From Natrinema saccharevitans (lineage in GTDB: Archaea > Halobacteriota > Halobacteria > Halobacteriales > Natrialbaceae), in the NCBI RefSeq assembly GCF_001953745.1, contig NZ_LWLN01000001.1, forward strand, positions 186,001 to 250,000: a stretch of 64,000 bases of DNA, written 5' to 3'. Below are positions 8,998 through 44,566 of the stretch, one piece after another. The notes below the pieces were generated by a model. It searched no databases, was not told where the DNA came from, and was given only the letters and a program-made list of their open reading frames with translations. A program made the position numbers and the translations under genes. The first letter of the stretch is position 1, and the number at the start of each line of letters is the position of its first letter.

Positions 8998-9876
8998 CTA
9001 TCCGTGCGTGTAGCCCCGATCCGCCAGCGACTCGCCGTCCACGCTGATGCCGTGATCGGGCTCCCGGACCCGTCCGAGGACCGACAGCGAGACGTCGGTC
9101 GCCGACCGGACCGCCGACAGCGCGTCCGCGGGGACGGTCGCGACGAGTTCGAAGTCCTCGCCGAAGGTCGTCGCGCGCTCGAGCGCGTCGTCGTCACCGT
9201 CGGCGATCTCGCGGACGGCGTCGTCGATCGGCACGCGGTCGGATTCGATCGCGAACCCGCAGTCGCTGGCCTCGGCCAGCTGATGCAGCGAGCGGGCCAG
9301 CCCGTCGCTCGAGTCCATCATCGCGCTCGCGTGCGGAGCGAGCGCCCGTCCAGCGGCGATCCGCGGCTCGAACCGGAACAGTTCGTTCGCTCGCTCGGCG
9401 TGACCCCGGTCGAACAGCTCGAGCGCGGCCGCGCTGCGGCCGAGGGTGCCGGTCACGCAGACGCGATCGCCGGGACGGGCTCCCGACCGACGGACGGGGT
9501 CGTCGGCGCGGCCGATCGCGGTCGTGGCCGTCGTGAACTCCTCGTGACTATCGAGGTCGCCGCCAACGTATTCGGTATCGACGCGGTCGCAGACGTCGTT
9601 CGCGCCGCGAACGAAGTCCAGCAGCTCCTCCCCGTCGAAGGTCGGCGCGGCGTAGGCGGCGACCGCGGCCGTCGCCTCGGCCCCCATCGCAGCCACGTCC
9701 GACAGCGACGCGCCGACGGCGCGCCAGCCGGCGGTGTACCGGGTCGTCCCGTCCGGAAAATCGGTGCGATCGTGGAGCATGTCCGTCGTCACGACCAGCC
9801 CGTCGACGACGGCGGCGTCGTCGCCGGCCGCCGCGAGTTCCCCCTCGAGCAGTCGGAGGGCGGCGCGTTCGTCCAT
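8998..9876 (-). CDS. thiL: Thiamine-monophosphate kinase
   Basis: ThiL phosphorylates thiamine monophosphate to the active cofactor thiamine diphosphate. The 292-residue protein starts MDERAALRLL and shows GDDAAVVDGLVVTTDMLHDRTDF at about residues 18-40, the metal- and ATP-binding Asp cluster of the family, then GWRAVGASLSDVAAMGA, VTGTLGRSAAALEL and SMMDSSDGLARSL. The start at 9876 is chosen because the conserved sequence begins there; an 18-codon upstream extension has no family features. It is divergent from rps19e, with the S19e promoter in between. Confidence 0.93.
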   Translation of the reverse strand: MDERAALRLLEGELAAAGDDAAVVDGLVVTTDMLHDRTDFPDGTTRYTAGWRAVGASLSDVAAMGAEATAAVAAYAAPTFDGEELLDFVRGANDVCDRVDTEYVGGDLDSHEEFTTATTAIGRADDPVRRSGARPGDRVCVTGTLGRSAAALELFDRGHAERANELFRFEPRIAAGRALAPHASAMMDSSDGLARSLHQLAEASDCGFAIESDRVPIDDAVREIADGDDDALERATTFGEDFELVATVPADALSAVRSATDVSLSVLGRVREPDHGISVDGESLADRGYTHG

Positions 9877-9940
9877 ACCCCTCGTTTCGACTCGAGGGCG
9901 AAAAACCGTCCGGGCCGGCCGGATCGGCACGATACGATGG

Positions 9941-9948
9941 TCTTAAAT
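9941..9948 (+). promoter_or_regulatory. TATA box of rps19e
   Basis: The TCTTAAAT sequence lies about 25-32 bases before the ATG at 9973, in the usual leaderless arrangement. Confidence 0.65.
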
Positions 9949-9972
9949 GCCGCGGACGGAAATCACACGCCA

Positions 9973-10428
9973 ATGGCTACGATGTACGACGTTCCGGCGG
10001 ACGACCTCATCGAGGCGCTCGCCGACGATCTCGCGGACCGACTCGAGGAACCGGACTGGGGCAAATTCGCCAAAAGCGGCGTCGACAAGAAACTCCCGCC
10101 CGAACAGGACGACTTCTGGGCCACCCGCGCCGCGAGTCTCCTGCGCAAGGTCGCCGATCGCGGCCCGATCGGCGTCGAGCGACTGTCGACCGAGTACGGC
10201 GGCGCGAAGGGCGGCTCGAACCGCTATCAGGTCGCGCCCGCGAAGCGAACCGACGGCTCGAAGAACCTCATCCGGACCATCCTCCAGCAGCTCGAGGAGG
10301 AAGACCTCGTCGAGACCGCCGAGGGCGAGGGTCGCCGCATTACCGCCGACGGCCGGAGCCTGCTCGACGAGACCGCCGACGAGGTCCTCGAGGAACTCGA
10401 CCGCCCGGAACTCGAGCGCTACGCCTGA
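9973..10428 (+). CDS. rps19e: 30S ribosomal protein S19e
   Basis: S19e is an archaeal/eukaryotic small-subunit ribosomal protein needed for 30S/40S maturation and has no bacterial counterpart. The 151-residue protein reads MATMYDVPADDLIEALA, then PDWGKFAKSGVDKKLPP, WATRAASLLRKV, a GGAKGGSNRYQ basic loop and IRTILQQLEEEDLVE. This is the all-helical winged fold along its full length. The frame is open far upstream, antisense to thiL, but the family start and TATA box place the ATG at 9973. It is followed about 100 bases on by the PDCD5-like gene, an order common in archaea. Confidence 0.96.
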   Translation: MATMYDVPADDLIEALADDLADRLEEPDWGKFAKSGVDKKLPPEQDDFWATRAASLLRKVADRGPIGVERLSTEYGGAKGGSNRYQVAPAKRTDGSKNLIRTILQQLEEEDLVETAEGEGRRITADGRSLLDETADEVLEELDRPELERYA

Positions 10429-38928: not shown

Positions 38929-39417
38929 CTACTCGTCGACGACGCCGCCCGCGTCGACCGCGGCGGTTCGAATCGCTGTCGTGTCAGTGGCCGCGAGGAG
39001 ATGCGCCGGACAGTCACAGTCCGACGCGCCGACCCCCTCGACCGGCTCGCCCGGCAACGCGGTCGCCAGTTCACACTCCCGATCGGCGTCGGGGAACGTG
39101 ATCGCGGTCTCGAGCCGGGTCGCTGGATGACCGAGCAGATAATCGACGTGCCAGTGGCGCGTCTCCCGGTCGCCGGCGGCCAGTTCGCGGTGGCGGTCTC
39201 GCGAGCGAAGCGAGTGAGACCTCGTCGGTGCTTTGCTCCGACGGCGATCGACCCGGCTGAAGCCGCCGGGGCCGAACGCCGAGCCGACGTAGGCGTACGC
39301 CCCCGCTTCGAACGCCAGGTCGCCCAGCGCACCGACCTCGATGGTCGCGGCTCGCGTCGCCTCGATCACGAGAACGTACGTCCCGTCCGTGGCAGCCCCT
39401 CGGGACGGGAGCGGCAA
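38929..39417 (-). CDS. DUF123/GIY-YIG-like protein with an in-frame double-hairpin insertion
   Basis: The 162-residue protein has the DUF123 (GIY-YIG nuclease-related) pattern: GTYVLVIEATRAATIEVGAL, GAYAYVGSAFGPGGFSR, then after an insertion RHWHVDYLLGHPATRLE, and C-terminal GASDCDCPAHL. The segment RRRSKAPTRSHSLRSRD (about residues 57-72) is absent from the family as I know it and is encoded by a double hairpin at 39196-39243. The start is a TTG at 39417, because no ATG or GTG is available in frame. Related proteins are linked to DNA repair or tRNA handling, but the function is not established. Confidence 0.75.
   Translation of the reverse strand: MPLPSRGAATDGTYVLVIEATRAATIEVGALGDLAFEAGAYAYVGSAFGPGGFSRVDRRRSKAPTRSHSLRSRDRHRELAAGDRETRHWHVDYLLGHPATRLETAITFPDADRECELATALPGEPVEGVGASDCDCPAHLLAATDTTAIRTAAVDAGGVVDE
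39196..39243 (-). repeat. In-frame double hairpin inside the DUF123 gene
   Basis: Hairpin 1 pairs 39196-39206 with 39210-39220 around GAA, with a tandem G-A mismatch. Hairpin 2 pairs 39223-39231 with 39235-39243 around TTT, with one T-T mismatch. On the coding strand the insert is flanked by near-identical GATCGCC and GACCGCC, which could be a target duplication. Confidence 0.72.
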
Positions 39418-39465
39418 AAACGGGGGTGATGTCGGCCCGCGGGATTCCGCGTGGCGAGTCGCGTC

Positions 39466-40611
39466 TCAGCGCGACCGATCCTCGGTTCGGCCGTGGTCCT
39501 CGTCGGCGGTCGGATCGCCCTCGTTGACGTGCCGGCGGTTGCTCGTGTCGTCGTCCCGTCGCTGGGCCTCCGCGTCGCTCGAGCCCCGAGACTCGCGAGA
39601 GTCGGTCCAGTCACCCGACTCGGCGCGGCGTCCCCGCTGGCGGTACTCGAGGCCGCCGCCGGATTGCTGCTCGCGGTTCATGCGGCCGCCGGAGGTATCG
39701 CGTTCCCCGCCGCGGTCGAACTGCTGGGCGTCGCCGTAGTCCCGTTGCGAGCGGTCCGTCTCCTGCGAGCCGCGATCCCGCTGCCGTCCGCGCTCGTAGC
39801 CCGCGCTTCGCTGGTGGCGACGGGGCTCGGGCTGACCCCGCTGGTACTGACTGCCGTGTTGCTCGCCGGTCCACCGGGACTGGCTCCCCTGGTCCTCGCC
39901 CCGGATGCCGCTTTGCTGCCCGCGATGCTGTCGGTTCTGCCCGCCTCGGTCGGACGTCGCACCGGTCCGGGTCTCGCGGTCCTCGTGCCAGCGCTGTTGG
40001 GCTCCCTGCCGGTCGTCCTCGCGTCGCGTCTCCCCCCGACGCTGTTGGGTCCGATCCTCCGTCCGGTGGCCCCGTTCCACGGGGCCGCGCTGGCCGCCCT
40101 GCTCGTGTCGATCCTGCTCGCCGGGCTGTCGACGCTGCTGACCCTGTTCGTGTCGTCCACGCGTCCCGCCCCGCCGTTGGTCCTGCCCGCGTTGGCCGCC
40201 GCGGTGGCTCTCGTGTCGGGCCTCGCCGCCGTACTCGAGGGCCGCTTCCTGCATCGCGTTCGTTTCGAAGCCACTGCGTTGCCCGTGACCGCTCCCCTGG
40301 CCGGTTCCACCCCGTCGCCGGCCGGACTGTCGGCCCTGCTGGCCGGCGCTCTGGCTGCGCTCGCGATGCGGGCCCGACTCCTGGCTCTGCTGGCGGTCGG
40401 GCTGACGGCCTTCGGCCCGGCGCTGTTCCCGCCCGCGGTCGGGCCCCTGCGCCTCCCGATCGTCGCTCCCGCCGCGGCTGAAGAGGCCGTGGAGCCAGCC
40501 GCGATCGGCGCCCTCGCGGTCCCGGTCGCCGCCTCGGTCCCGCGTGCCGCGTCCGCGCTCGGTCGATCGCTCGGTACGCCGCCGGTCTCGGTCCCGGTTT
40601 CGATCGGTCAT
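39466..40611 (-). CDS. Arg/Gln/Gly-rich disordered protein without lysine or cysteine
   Basis: The 381-residue protein starts MTDRNRDRDRRRTERSTER and stays low-complexity to the end, with about 83 Arg by my count (22%) and many Gln, Gly, Asp, Glu and Ser. There is no Lys or Cys and only a short ordered-looking patch, RGWLHGLFSRGG (about residues 37-48). Imperfect repeats such as RHEQGQQR and RHEQGGQR occur around 150-180. Its basic character is exceptional in an acid-rich halophile proteome. RGG-like repeats suggest nucleic-acid binding or condensates; that is inference. An equally long hydrophobic frame lies antisense (39451-40632), but the TTG-free ATG start and GC-third codon pattern favour this strand. 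Confidence 0.6.
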   Translation of the reverse strand: MTDRNRDRDRRRTERSTERGRGTRDRGGDRDREGADRGWLHGLFSRGGSDDREAQGPDRGREQRRAEGRQPDRQQSQESGPHRERSQSAGQQGRQSGRRRGGTGQGSGHGQRSGFETNAMQEAALEYGGEARHESHRGGQRGQDQRRGGTRGRHEQGQQRRQPGEQDRHEQGGQRGPVERGHRTEDRTQQRRGETRREDDRQGAQQRWHEDRETRTGATSDRGGQNRQHRGQQSGIRGEDQGSQSRWTGEQHGSQYQRGQPEPRRHQRSAGYERGRQRDRGSQETDRSQRDYGDAQQFDRGGERDTSGGRMNREQQSGGGLEYRQRGRRAESGDWTDSRESRGSSDAEAQRRDDDTSNRRHVNEGDPTADEDHGRTEDRSR

Positions 40612-40844
40612 GATGTGGCTGTCGGTCGGTAGCGTCGTCTCTCACTGTCGCTTCGAGCGACGCGCCCGTCGCTGGTCGGTGTGTGACTGCGGCCGATCCT
40701 ATACTCAACGTCCGGATAAAGCCTGAGCGCGCCTTTGCGTGCAGCCAAAGCGGGGCCGGGCGGGACCACGCCCGGTCGGGAACGGCGACCGCGCGGTGGC
40801 TCGAGCGCCGCCCCGTCGTCGATACTGCACCCCATACCCGGCCG

Positions 40845-41849
40845 CTACCGGCGCTGGGTCGACGCGACGGGGCCGTTCCCGCGGTCGTAGACCTGTCGCG
40901 CGTCCGTGTTCGGACCGAACGCGAACAGCCCGCGGGCGGGCTCGTGGTCGTAGGTCACCCACTGGGGGAGAACCGCCGCCCCGGTTAGCTTTCGGACCGC
41001 GAGCCGTTTGAGCCGGGTCCCCGCCGCGTTCCCGTCGGTCAGCCGCAGGTCGACGATCCCGTCGAAGACGCGCTCGGGTTCCGGATGCTCCGCCTGTCCC
41101 GCCGTCGTCGCCGCGGCGACGATCGGGACGAAACGGGCCGTACAGACCGTCGATCGGACGTCTTTGAGAAAATCGTGGACGAGCCCGCCACCCGCCAGCG
41201 ACTCGAGTTCGTCCAGCGAGTCGATCGTCACCAGTCCCGTCTCGGACATCTCGAGGTCGTCGATCGCCCGGTGGATCCCGTTCGCTACCTCGCGGCGGTC
41301 GCTCGGATCGGCCACCTCGACGACCGCGTCGGCGGCGGCCTCGCCGAGAAAGGTCGCCCACTCGGTTCGCCCGGCGCGAAACTCGTCGCGGTCGTCGAGC
41401 CGACGGGTGAAACAGTCGACGATCCGCAGGCGGTCGGTCTCCAGCGCCGGCAGGACGTTCCAGCCGTTCTCGTAGAAGCGCTCGAGCGCCGCCGTCGGCG
41501 GGTTCGCGACCGAACAGACGACCGCGGGCTCGCCGCGCTCTAAGGCCCGCCAGACGAGTTCGGTCTCGAGTTCGGCCCGGCGGGTGCCCTCGTCGCCCGA
41601 CAGGAGTACCAACGAGTCGGCCGGAATCCCGTTCGGGACCAGCGAGTCCAGCGGCTCGACCCCGGTCACGACTCGCTTGTAGGCGTCGGGGTCGGGCATC
41701 GTCGAACCGTCGGCGGCGGCCTCGCGGCAGGCCGCCGAACAGTAGCGGCCGTCCTCGCCCGCCTCGGGCTCGCCGGGGATCGGATAGTGGCAGTGATCGC
41801 ACTCGAGGGGGTACTCCCGGGCGCGATCCGTCCAGAGCTGATCGGACAT
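40845..41849 (-). CDS. RecA-superfamily ATPase-like protein (KaiC/RAD55-like, HTR-like) with N-terminal zinc finger
   Basis: The 334-residue protein begins MSDQLWTDRAREYPLECDHC, with a zinc-finger-like site (CDHC at 17-20, then YCSAAC near 37-42). It continues with a RecA-type fold: GVEPLDSLVPNGIPADSLVLLSGDEGT (degenerate P-loop region), VVCSVANPPT and ETGLVTIDSLDELESLAGG (Walker B-like). The P-loop lacks the usual GKT/S, so ATP hydrolysis is doubtful. Such haloarchaeal proteins (HTR-like) are thought to be signalling or regulatory. The start at 41849 is chosen because ten upstream codons are not family-like. Repeat copy F lies beyond the start. Confidence 0.72.
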   Translation of the reverse strand: MSDQLWTDRAREYPLECDHCHYPIPGEPEAGEDGRYCSAACREAAADGSTMPDPDAYKRVVTGVEPLDSLVPNGIPADSLVLLSGDEGTRRAELETELVWRALERGEPAVVCSVANPPTAALERFYENGWNVLPALETDRLRIVDCFTRRLDDRDEFRAGRTEWATFLGEAAADAVVEVADPSDRREVANGIHRAIDDLEMSETGLVTIDSLDELESLAGGGLVHDFLKDVRSTVCTARFVPIVAAATTAGQAEHPEPERVFDGIVDLRLTDGNAAGTRLKRLAVRKLTGAAVLPQWVTYDHEPARGLFAFGPNTDARQVYDRGNGPVASTQRR

Positions 41850-41984
41850 ATCGACCCGCCCTACCACCGACGCCGGCAAAGAACCCGCCCCTGCAGGCGA
41901 CCGAGCCGATCGTCTCGGGACGGCGCTCGTTCGACGAGACAGCCAGTTCGGTCAGCGACTCTCTCTGGCCCGCTCAGTCGACCT

Positions 41985-42503: not shown

Positions 42504-43493
42504 ATGGACGACGCCCTAGTCATCGGCGGCACGCGCTTTATCGGCCGCCACCTCGTCGCGGAACTGCTCGACCACGACTACGACGTGACCCTGTTCACGC
42601 GGGGCACCCGCGAGAACCCCTTCGCGGACGACGACCGCGTCGACCACGTCGAGGGCGACCGGACGAACGACACCGCCCTCGAGGCGGCCGCGACGACGGT
42701 CGACCCCGACGCCGTCTTCGACTGCGTGGCCTACCACCCGAAGGACGTCCGGGCCGCGACCCGGATCTTCGACGACTGCGAGGCGTACGTCTACGTCTCG
42801 AGCGGCGCGGCCTACGGGCGCGAAGAGATCCCCAAGCGAGAGGGCGAGACGCCCTTGCACGACTGCACGCCGGAGCAGGCGACCGACGACTCCGTCGAGA
42901 CCTACGGCAACCGGAAGGCCGAGGGCGACCGGGCGGCGTTCGCGGCGGCCGACGACGGCGTGCCCGCCATGGTCGTCCGGCCGCCGATCGTCTACGGCCC
43001 CCACGACTACACCGAGCGGCTGAACTGGTGGATCGACCGCGTGAACCGCTTCGACCGGGTCGTCGTCCCCGGCGACGGGACGAACCTCCGTCACCTCGTC
43101 TACGTCGAGGACGTCGCCGCCGCCCTCCGGATCGTCGCCGAACGCGGCGACCCCGGCGAGGCCTACAACGTCGGCGACCGCCGGCTCGTCCCGCTCGAGG
43201 AACTGGTCGAATCACTCGCGGACGCCCTCGAGACGGCGGTCGAGATCGTCCACGCCGGACCGCGCGAACTCGCGGCCGGCGAACTCGCCCTCGAGGACTA
43301 CCCGCTCTACCGGTCCTACCCGCACGTCCTCTCGACGGCGAAACTCGCCGGACTGGGCTGGGAATCGACGCCGCTCGAGGCGGCGCTGGCTCACACGGTC
43401 GACGAGCACCTCGAGAGCGATCGAAACGGCGACGACAACGGGCCGGCCCGCGAGGACGAGGAGCGCGTGCTGGCGATCCTCGAGACGCTTTAG
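42504..43493 (+). CDS. NAD-dependent epimerase/dehydratase family protein
   Basis: The 329-residue extended short-chain dehydrogenase/reductase has the Rossmann motif GGTRFIGRHLV (about residues 8-18), DAVFDCVAYHPKDV, SSGAAYGREEIPKREGE and the catalytic-type YGNRKAEGDRA (Tyr and Lys, near 134-139). Later VVRPPIVYGPHDYTERLNWW and YVEDVAAAL match sugar-nucleotide epimerases or dehydratases. Acidic residues dominate the surface. The exact sugar substrate is unknown. Its stop overlaps the end of the convergent M48-like gene by four bases. The ATG at 42504 follows repeat copy G by about 130 bases. Confidence 0.88.
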   Translation: MDDALVIGGTRFIGRHLVAELLDHDYDVTLFTRGTRENPFADDDRVDHVEGDRTNDTALEAAATTVDPDAVFDCVAYHPKDVRAATRIFDDCEAYVYVSSGAAYGREEIPKREGETPLHDCTPEQATDDSVETYGNRKAEGDRAAFAAADDGVPAMVVRPPIVYGPHDYTERLNWWIDRVNRFDRVVVPGDGTNLRHLVYVEDVAAALRIVAERGDPGEAYNVGDRRLVPLEELVESLADALETAVEIVHAGPRELAAGELALEDYPLYRSYPHVLSTAKLAGLGWESTPLEAALAHTVDEHLESDRNGDDNGPAREDEERVLAILETL

Positions 43494-44566
43494 GCGTCGC
43501 GGAGCCGCTCGAGCCGCCGGCTCGTCGACGGCCGTGGCGCGAGCCGTTCGTGGACTCGACTCCGGTCGTCGGTCAGGTCGGTGCCGGCCTCGATCGCGCT
43601 CGCGAGGGCGTCCGTACCGACCGCCCGCGCGGCGCGCCGATCGGCGGCGAACTCGGTACGCTGGAGCGTTCGGGCGAGCAGCGGCCCGGCGACCGCGAGG
43701 CCGACGAGCCCGGCGGCCAGCGACGCCCAGACGGTCAGCGTCAGGAACAGCCCGAAGAGGGCCGCTACGACCAGCGCCCGTCGCTCGAGGAGCCGACGTT
43801 CGTCTGCGATCTTTGCCCGCGCACACAGTGCCGTCAGCGCCTCGTCATCGAGAGCGTCGAGCGCGTAGTCGGTGACGTACGCTCGCCGATTCCAGAACGG
43901 CCCGTCGAGATAGCAGCCGGCGGTATCGGTTTCGCGGCCGGGCATCACGCCACCGATCGCCGCCGACAGATCGGCCCGGTCGACCGCGGCCTCGAGCCGT
44001 CGGCGCTGGTCGGACGTCGGCGCGGCGATCGTCTGCGAGAGCCGGACGCTGTACTGTACCCAGGCGTAGCACCCGACGGCGAGGGCGGCAAACAGGAGGG
44101 GAATCAGCAGCGGGCTGGGGTCGGACGCGGCGACCAGCGCCGTGAACGGCGCGAGCGCGGCCGCCACGAAGAGCGCGATCGTCGCGAGGTACTTTGCGAG
44201 CCGGCCGACCGCCGTCACGGCGCTGATATCGAGGTCGCGGCGCTGTCGTGCGTAGGGGAAGACGCCGCGGTACGCGACTAACACGGCGGCGATCGTTCCG
44301 CCCGCGGTCGGGAGCCAGGAAAGCGGCGCGGCGAACCCGCCCGCCAGCGCCGGATGGACGGCCGCGATCGCGCGCTCGGTCGCGTCGACGAGACCGGCGA
44401 ACGCGAGTGCGAGCAGGGCCACGAGGCCGACGACGGTGAGGAGTCGATACGTCCCGCGAGAGCGGTCGCCCTCGTCGGCGCGTCGGAGCGAGTACCGGCC
44501 ATAGAGTCGGCCGCTGCCGTAGCCGACGGCGAGCAGTCCGAACCAGAGCGCGAGTAAGCCGAGCAT
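43490..44566 (-). CDS. M48-like integral membrane protein lacking the HExxH active site (pseudoprotease)
   Basis: The 358-residue protein is highly hydrophobic, with an N-terminal membrane segment (about 1-20), three more near 45-65, 80-100 and 125-165, and a hairpin near 255-290. The soluble part carries the M48 landmarks: TDYALDALDDEALTALCA corresponds to the helix that should hold HExxH, and TEFAADRRAARAVG matches the EFxAD motif. The zinc HExxH is missing: the spot reads ALTALCARAKIADERR. It is therefore probably non-catalytic, perhaps a membrane scaffold or regulator of active M48/HtpX. Its promoter (CTTATAATAT on the minus strand) is at 44587-44597. Confidence 0.75.
   Translation of the reverse strand: MLGLLALWFGLLAVGYGSGRLYGRYSLRRADEGDRSRGTYRLLTVVGLVALLALAFAGLVDATERAIAAVHPALAGGFAAPLSWLPTAGGTIAAVLVAYRGVFPYARQRRDLDISAVTAVGRLAKYLATIALFVAAALAPFTALVAASDPSPLLIPLLFAALAVGCYAWVQYSVRLSQTIAAPTSDQRRRLEAAVDRADLSAAIGGVMPGRETDTAGCYLDGPFWNRRAYVTDYALDALDDEALTALCARAKIADERRLLERRALVVAALFGLFLTLTVWASLAAGLVGLAVAGPLLARTLQRTEFAADRRAARAVGTDALASAIEAGTDLTDDRSRVHERLAPRPSTSRRLERLRDA

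Follow-up and report, generated by a model that had tools for sequence, protein, structure and literature searches.

The locus discussed here raises the question of whether a long, basic and arginine-rich chain is a real product of a halophile genome and, if so, what role it might play in a cell filled with salt. The window (the whole stretch of DNA analysed, 64,000 nucleotides from Natrinema saccharevitans) carries two facing reading frames at this position:

39466..40611, minus strand: gene for a 381-residue Arg-rich protein, predicted to be disordered (open reading frame, composition, orthologues, synteny, purifying selection, AlphaFold2)
39451..40632, plus strand: antisense mirror frame of 393 residues, rich in A, L, V and P and hydrophobic; judged not to be a gene (dN/dS exceeding 1 in each of nine pairs)

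Coding strand and composition

The minus-strand frame runs from an ATG start to a TGA stop, and the plus-strand frame lies in register with it as the mirror of an R/Q/D/G-rich sequence. Neither is interrupted by a stop codon over more than 1.1 kb, and their codon scores are close (0.35 versus 0.23), as would be expected if the plus-strand frame were the gene, or if neither were and the Arg-rich frame were an artefact of GC-rich DNA. Across nine ortholog pairs, however, dN/dS was 0.22-0.42 in the sense (minus) frame and 1.06-2.09 in the mirror (plus) frame, with 9/9 pairs above 1 in the latter, and substitutions fell mainly on the third positions of minus-frame codons. This difference between the frames indicates that the minus strand codes and is under purifying selection, the mirror frame evolving without it; the preservation of the minus-strand protein motifs and promoter across genera argues for the same strand. 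The plus-strand or artefact reading was ruled out by the two sets of dN/dS values, its remaining probability being very small, and the minus strand proposed by the sequence-only reading was upheld.

That reading had counted about 83 Arg among 381 residues, with neither Lys nor Cys, and had pointed to the abundance of Gln, Gly and Asp. All of this was borne out, coordinates and strand being exact: the protein contains 83 R, 65 G, 48 Q, 36 E and 35 D (71 acidic residues), with 0 K and 0 C. Its description as an outlier in an acidic proteome stood in part. Set against the window's 37 likely genes, nearly all of them net negative (R 7.5%, K 1.4%, C 0.8%, D+E 17.3%), the protein is a genuine outlier in its Arg content of 21.8% and its net charge of +12. 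Zero Lys (a chance of about 0.005 in 381 residues) is no outlier, because 2 of the 37 likewise contain 0.0% Lys. The Arg richness and positive charge are remarkable; the missing Lys by itself is not. The accompanying premise that halophile proteins avoid basic residues was too broad, as Lys is avoided in this genome (1.4%) but Arg is used freely (7.5%). The case shows that the proteome of a halophile has room for a disordered, basic protein maintained by selection.

Elsewhere in the window, a 474-residue frame (9004-10428, plus strand) matches ribosomal protein S19e over residues 326-463; the long Arg-rich stretch ahead of this is probably spurious, a result of choosing the first start codon.

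The family, its locus and its losses

Searches of Pfam, NCBIfam, PHROGs and PDB gave no match for the window protein, and nothing on the Natrialbaceae family was found in the literature on Arg-rich disordered haloarchaeal proteins. Within its own genome and 60 relatives, matches were found in 17 genomes, all Natrinema. Halopiger, Halobiforma, Natrialba, Natronorubrum, Natronolimnohabitans and Natrarchaeobius also carry homologues, as recovered by a search of named genomes, and most of these lie in the same neighbourhood. Homologues are present in eight Natrialbaceae genera besides Natrinema. A DNA pattern for LEYGGEAR, one of the family motifs described below, occurred in 24 of 392 genomes of the order, covering 9 genera, all Natrialbaceae, and the matches read were members of the family bar one IclR-type regulator; since the pattern is exact, its absence elsewhere is a statement of lower sensitivity. 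A search with a second motif gave the same distribution, and the family motifs were found in other families of the order only as one chance match. A pattern of the RHVHE type was too loose to be informative. No match to the protein was found in a plasmid collection. Conserved orthologues, which the sequence-only reading had proposed to look for, thus exist in about nine genera, and the proteins form a real, selected, so far unnamed and undescribed family of long Arg-rich unstructured proteins restricted to Natrialbaceae.

Two neighbours serve as syntenic landmarks:

40845..41879, minus strand: upstream neighbour, KaiC-like ATPase gene (Pfam KaiC 3e-14, synteny)
38929..39417, minus strand: downstream neighbour, DUF123 protein gene (Pfam DUF123 2e-28, synteny)

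With the KaiC-like gene as anchor, orthologues were located at the same locus beside it in 16 Natrinema species, that of the window included, lying between it and the DUF123 gene or, where the latter is missing, the next conserved gene. No KaiC-like match was found beside the Arg-rich gene in Natrialba and Halobiforma, and the family does not require this neighbour. A coupling of the two genes was rejected because either can occur without the other. In L058 and L060 (G014 and G025) about 1.4 kb of extra DNA separates the two genes and holds an opposite-strand frame resembling, by eye, a secreted beta-propeller lipoprotein. A further conserved neighbour (43490-44566, minus strand; 358 residues, net charge +8) has no Pfam match at 1e-3.

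Six Natrinema species show an empty site, with a short join of about 80-180 bp in place of the gene, two carry broken or decayed copies, and in one (L079, G015) the upstream region is kept while the gene is reduced to fragments of its two ends, the middle being gone. Because other genera hold the gene at the same locus, its absence from some Natrinema species points to loss; species lacking the gene occupy about four separate positions on a GltB tree, some nodes of which are weak, suggesting about four losses within the genus. Such repeated loss indicates that the gene is dispensable. In L079 the KaiC-like, AhpD-like and GltB matches are likewise split in two, perhaps by sequencing errors.

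Promoter and motifs

Two elements were recognized upstream of the start codon:

40699..40743, minus strand: conserved promoter block, TGCACGCAAAGGCGCGCTCAGG-CTTTATCC-GGACGTTGAGTATAG, with the TATA-like TTTATCC (aligned in 16 Natrinema species and other-genus homologues)
40612..40692, minus strand: 5' leader, predicted at about 81 nt, partly conserved in sequence (TATA-to-ATG distance; inferred transcript start)

The promoter block, 45 bp long and lying upstream of the start codon, is kept in the 16 Natrinema species and in the homologues of other genera. Within the genus its core, CRCGCTCNGGNTTTANNC, is found at this locus only, and with 2 mismatches allowed the genome itself contains no second site with an intact TATA-like part. 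The alignment points to a dedicated, conserved promoter; a regulon shared through this motif was looked for in the genus and in the genome itself, and none was found. In many relatives the inverted arms CGAAC...GTTCG flank the TATA-like box, more weakly so in the window copy, and these could be a regulator site. The predicted leader measures 71-97 nt in relatives, which is long for a haloarchaeal mRNA; no convincing covarying structure was found in it (RNAalifold, weak pairing).

Conservation scored in 21 diverse members showed that invariant and near-invariant positions cluster into short motifs (consensus GWLHGxFSRG, FETxAxxxxxLEYGGEAR, RHQRS, SGGGLEYRxxxxRxExGxWT and SNRRHVHE), separated by fast-changing R/Q/G spacers. 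Their positions in the window copy are:

40462..40506, minus strand: motif 1, DRGWLHGLFSRGGSD, residues 36-50 (near-invariant in Natrinema)
40216..40275, minus strand: motif 2, SGFETNAMQEAALEYGGEAR, residues 113-132 (1-3 copies in the family)
39799..39831, minus strand: motif 3, PEPRRHQRSAG, residues 261-271 (member alignment)
39604..39663, minus strand: motif 4, SGGGLEYRQRGRRAESGDWT, residues 317-336 (member alignment)
39511..39555, minus strand: motif 5, DDDTSNRRHVNEGDP, residues 353-367 (member alignment)

Motif 1 is recognisable in several other genera and missing in Natrialba, motif 2 is duplicated within members, and in motif 5 the residues R359, R360, H361 and V362 are invariant in the 21 members. 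Complete members range from 325 to 759 residues, and in-frame repeat expansion is visible, for example QGQRHQQGQ in Halopiger. The conserved blocks make up 12.5% of residues and hold 28% of the hydrophobic ones, a 2.2-fold enrichment, and are poor in Arg and Gln.

The kept order of the motifs, the 1-3 copies of motif 2 and the many invariant positions would suit a scaffold for one specific complex, docked through its motifs, with the Arg-rich spacers as mere flexible linkers. Against this, no neighbour is constant, the KaiC-like match being missing beside the gene in some genera, and the Arg-rich gene can vanish while its neighbours remain. We regard this explanation as quite improbable.

Predicted disorder and possible behaviour at molar salt

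The disorder proposed by the sequence-only reading holds up in prediction as well as in composition. AlphaFold2 returned a mean pLDDT of 41.9 and no secondary structure, from an alignment so shallow (nine sequences) that a low pLDDT is no proof of disorder. Disorder predictors tend to overcall in halophiles through their acidic, hydrophilic surfaces (PMC6384707), a bias which should apply less to a basic Arg-rich protein because it stems from acidic composition. In the members tested, FCR is 0.29-0.50 and net charge per residue -0.02 to +0.07 while the spacers drift, and in all of them opposite charges are mixed more evenly than the shuffle mean. Lys numbers 0-3 per protein, net charge is positive in nearly all members (one stands at -10), and aromatic residues are few, at about 3%. 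The window protein is predicted to be a well-mixed, near-neutral to basic polyampholyte, fully disordered.

By analogy with other Arg-rich chains, the protein may be a salt-tolerant, multivalent scaffold whose Arg residues and motifs serve as stickers for condensation at molar KCl. This reading is the likeliest, but it is tentative and falls somewhat short of an even chance. The short linear motifs would act as stickers and the R/Q/G stretches as spacers. If the protein is intracellular, as is assumed here, a cytosol of several molar KCl would screen charge attraction, leaving Arg side chains to stack on one another and to contact Gln, Gly and aromatic residues; further association could come from the hydrophobic motifs GWLHGxF, FETxA..LEYGG, SGGGLEY and GxWT. 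Binding to itself and to partners might then yield a condensate or meshwork, probably in a conditional, stress-related accessory role driven from its own promoter. This is consistent with purifying selection in the sense frame, with a composition, low Lys and even charge mixing that persist as the spacers drift, with the hydrophobic enrichment of the conserved blocks and the duplication of motif 2, with the low pLDDT and with the unique conserved promoter. Lys avoidance lends it no specific support, because it is general in these genomes. The scarcity of aromatic stickers and the dispensability of the gene, with its six empty sites, two decayed copies and one end-remnant, count against it. Self-association at high salt, partner binding and a stress role all belong to a function that we infer.

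Protamine, which is Arg-rich, phase separates without a partner at 2.75 M KCl or NaCl, while at high salt re-entrant phase separation is not seen with Lys-rich peptides; the salt level of this regime was called well beyond physiological by the authors (PMC9705477). As a model for high-salt phase separation (PMC9705477) it shares with the window protein the use of Arg in place of Lys. The comparison is nevertheless loose, since protamine is far richer in Arg and is no polyampholyte, whereas the window protein is much longer, only 22% Arg and acid-balanced, and no homology between them was found. The salt of the haloarchaeal cytosol is at about the level of the re-entrant regime. It may be, though this is doubtful, that the family consists of Arg-driven condensate proteins adapted to molar KCl, in which living cells use the re-entrant high-salt branch and keep Lys out as non-supporting. 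So far, this re-entrant behaviour of Arg-rich chains at molar salt has been a test-tube phenomenon; besides adding an unnamed protein family, a natural, conserved, Arg-rich and Lys-poor disordered protein in haloarchaea would offer a direct test of whether life uses it.

The RGG-like repeats noted from the sequence are present as 7 RGG triplets among 33 RG/GR steps, but not as clusters: the window protein has 0 di-RGG and 0 tri-RGG. Across the family, tri-RG clusters number 72 against 17.6 expected from shuffles, an enrichment that is weak in the window protein taken singly. The LAF-1 and FUS RGG regions are examples of RG/RGG-box proteins, and the family resembles them in its RG clusters and its disordered chain rich in Arg, Gly and Gln. 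These features, the 83 Arg and the positive charge of nearly all members would fit a nucleic-acid-binding RG-type protein, such as an RNA chaperone, a ribosome-associated factor or a chromatin-like compactor. The window member differs in having neither an RGG box nor a folded RNA-binding domain and in Asp and Glu nearly balancing Arg; net charge in the family is near zero, and ionic contacts hold RNA only weakly in molar KCl. We consider such a role unlikely.

The chain could also protect in the manner of a hydrophilin, as a disordered filler, soluble and strongly hydrated, that shields proteins and membranes in drying or salt upshift without specific assembly. In yeast and E. coli, hydrophilins, for which a compositional rule is given in words, are linked to osmotic stress (PMC4190154). 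The window protein follows that rule, with 17.1% Gly and a mean Kyte-Doolittle hydropathy of -2.28 (family 7.5-21.3% and -2.18 to -2.60). The cut-offs of Garay-Arroyo 2000 are reportedly Gly >6% and a hydrophilicity index >1. Hydrophilins and LEA proteins are similarly disordered, Gly-rich and very hydrophilic; unlike them, the window protein has Arg for Lys and conserved hydrophobic motifs. The LEA profile was not matched, nor was any related Pfam family, a weak Collagen match being seen in 1 of 21 members and none for the window protein. Near-invariant motifs containing W, F, L and Y would be superfluous in a pure filler, and these cells live in very high salt already. Protection of this kind is rather unlikely, and it and nucleic-acid binding are live rivals to the scaffold reading.

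Functional Arg-rich regions are known in another haloarchaeal protein, GvpD, reported to resemble AAA+ ATPases with Walker motifs; there the Arg-rich regions are short and the chain is not wholly disordered (PMC4390858).
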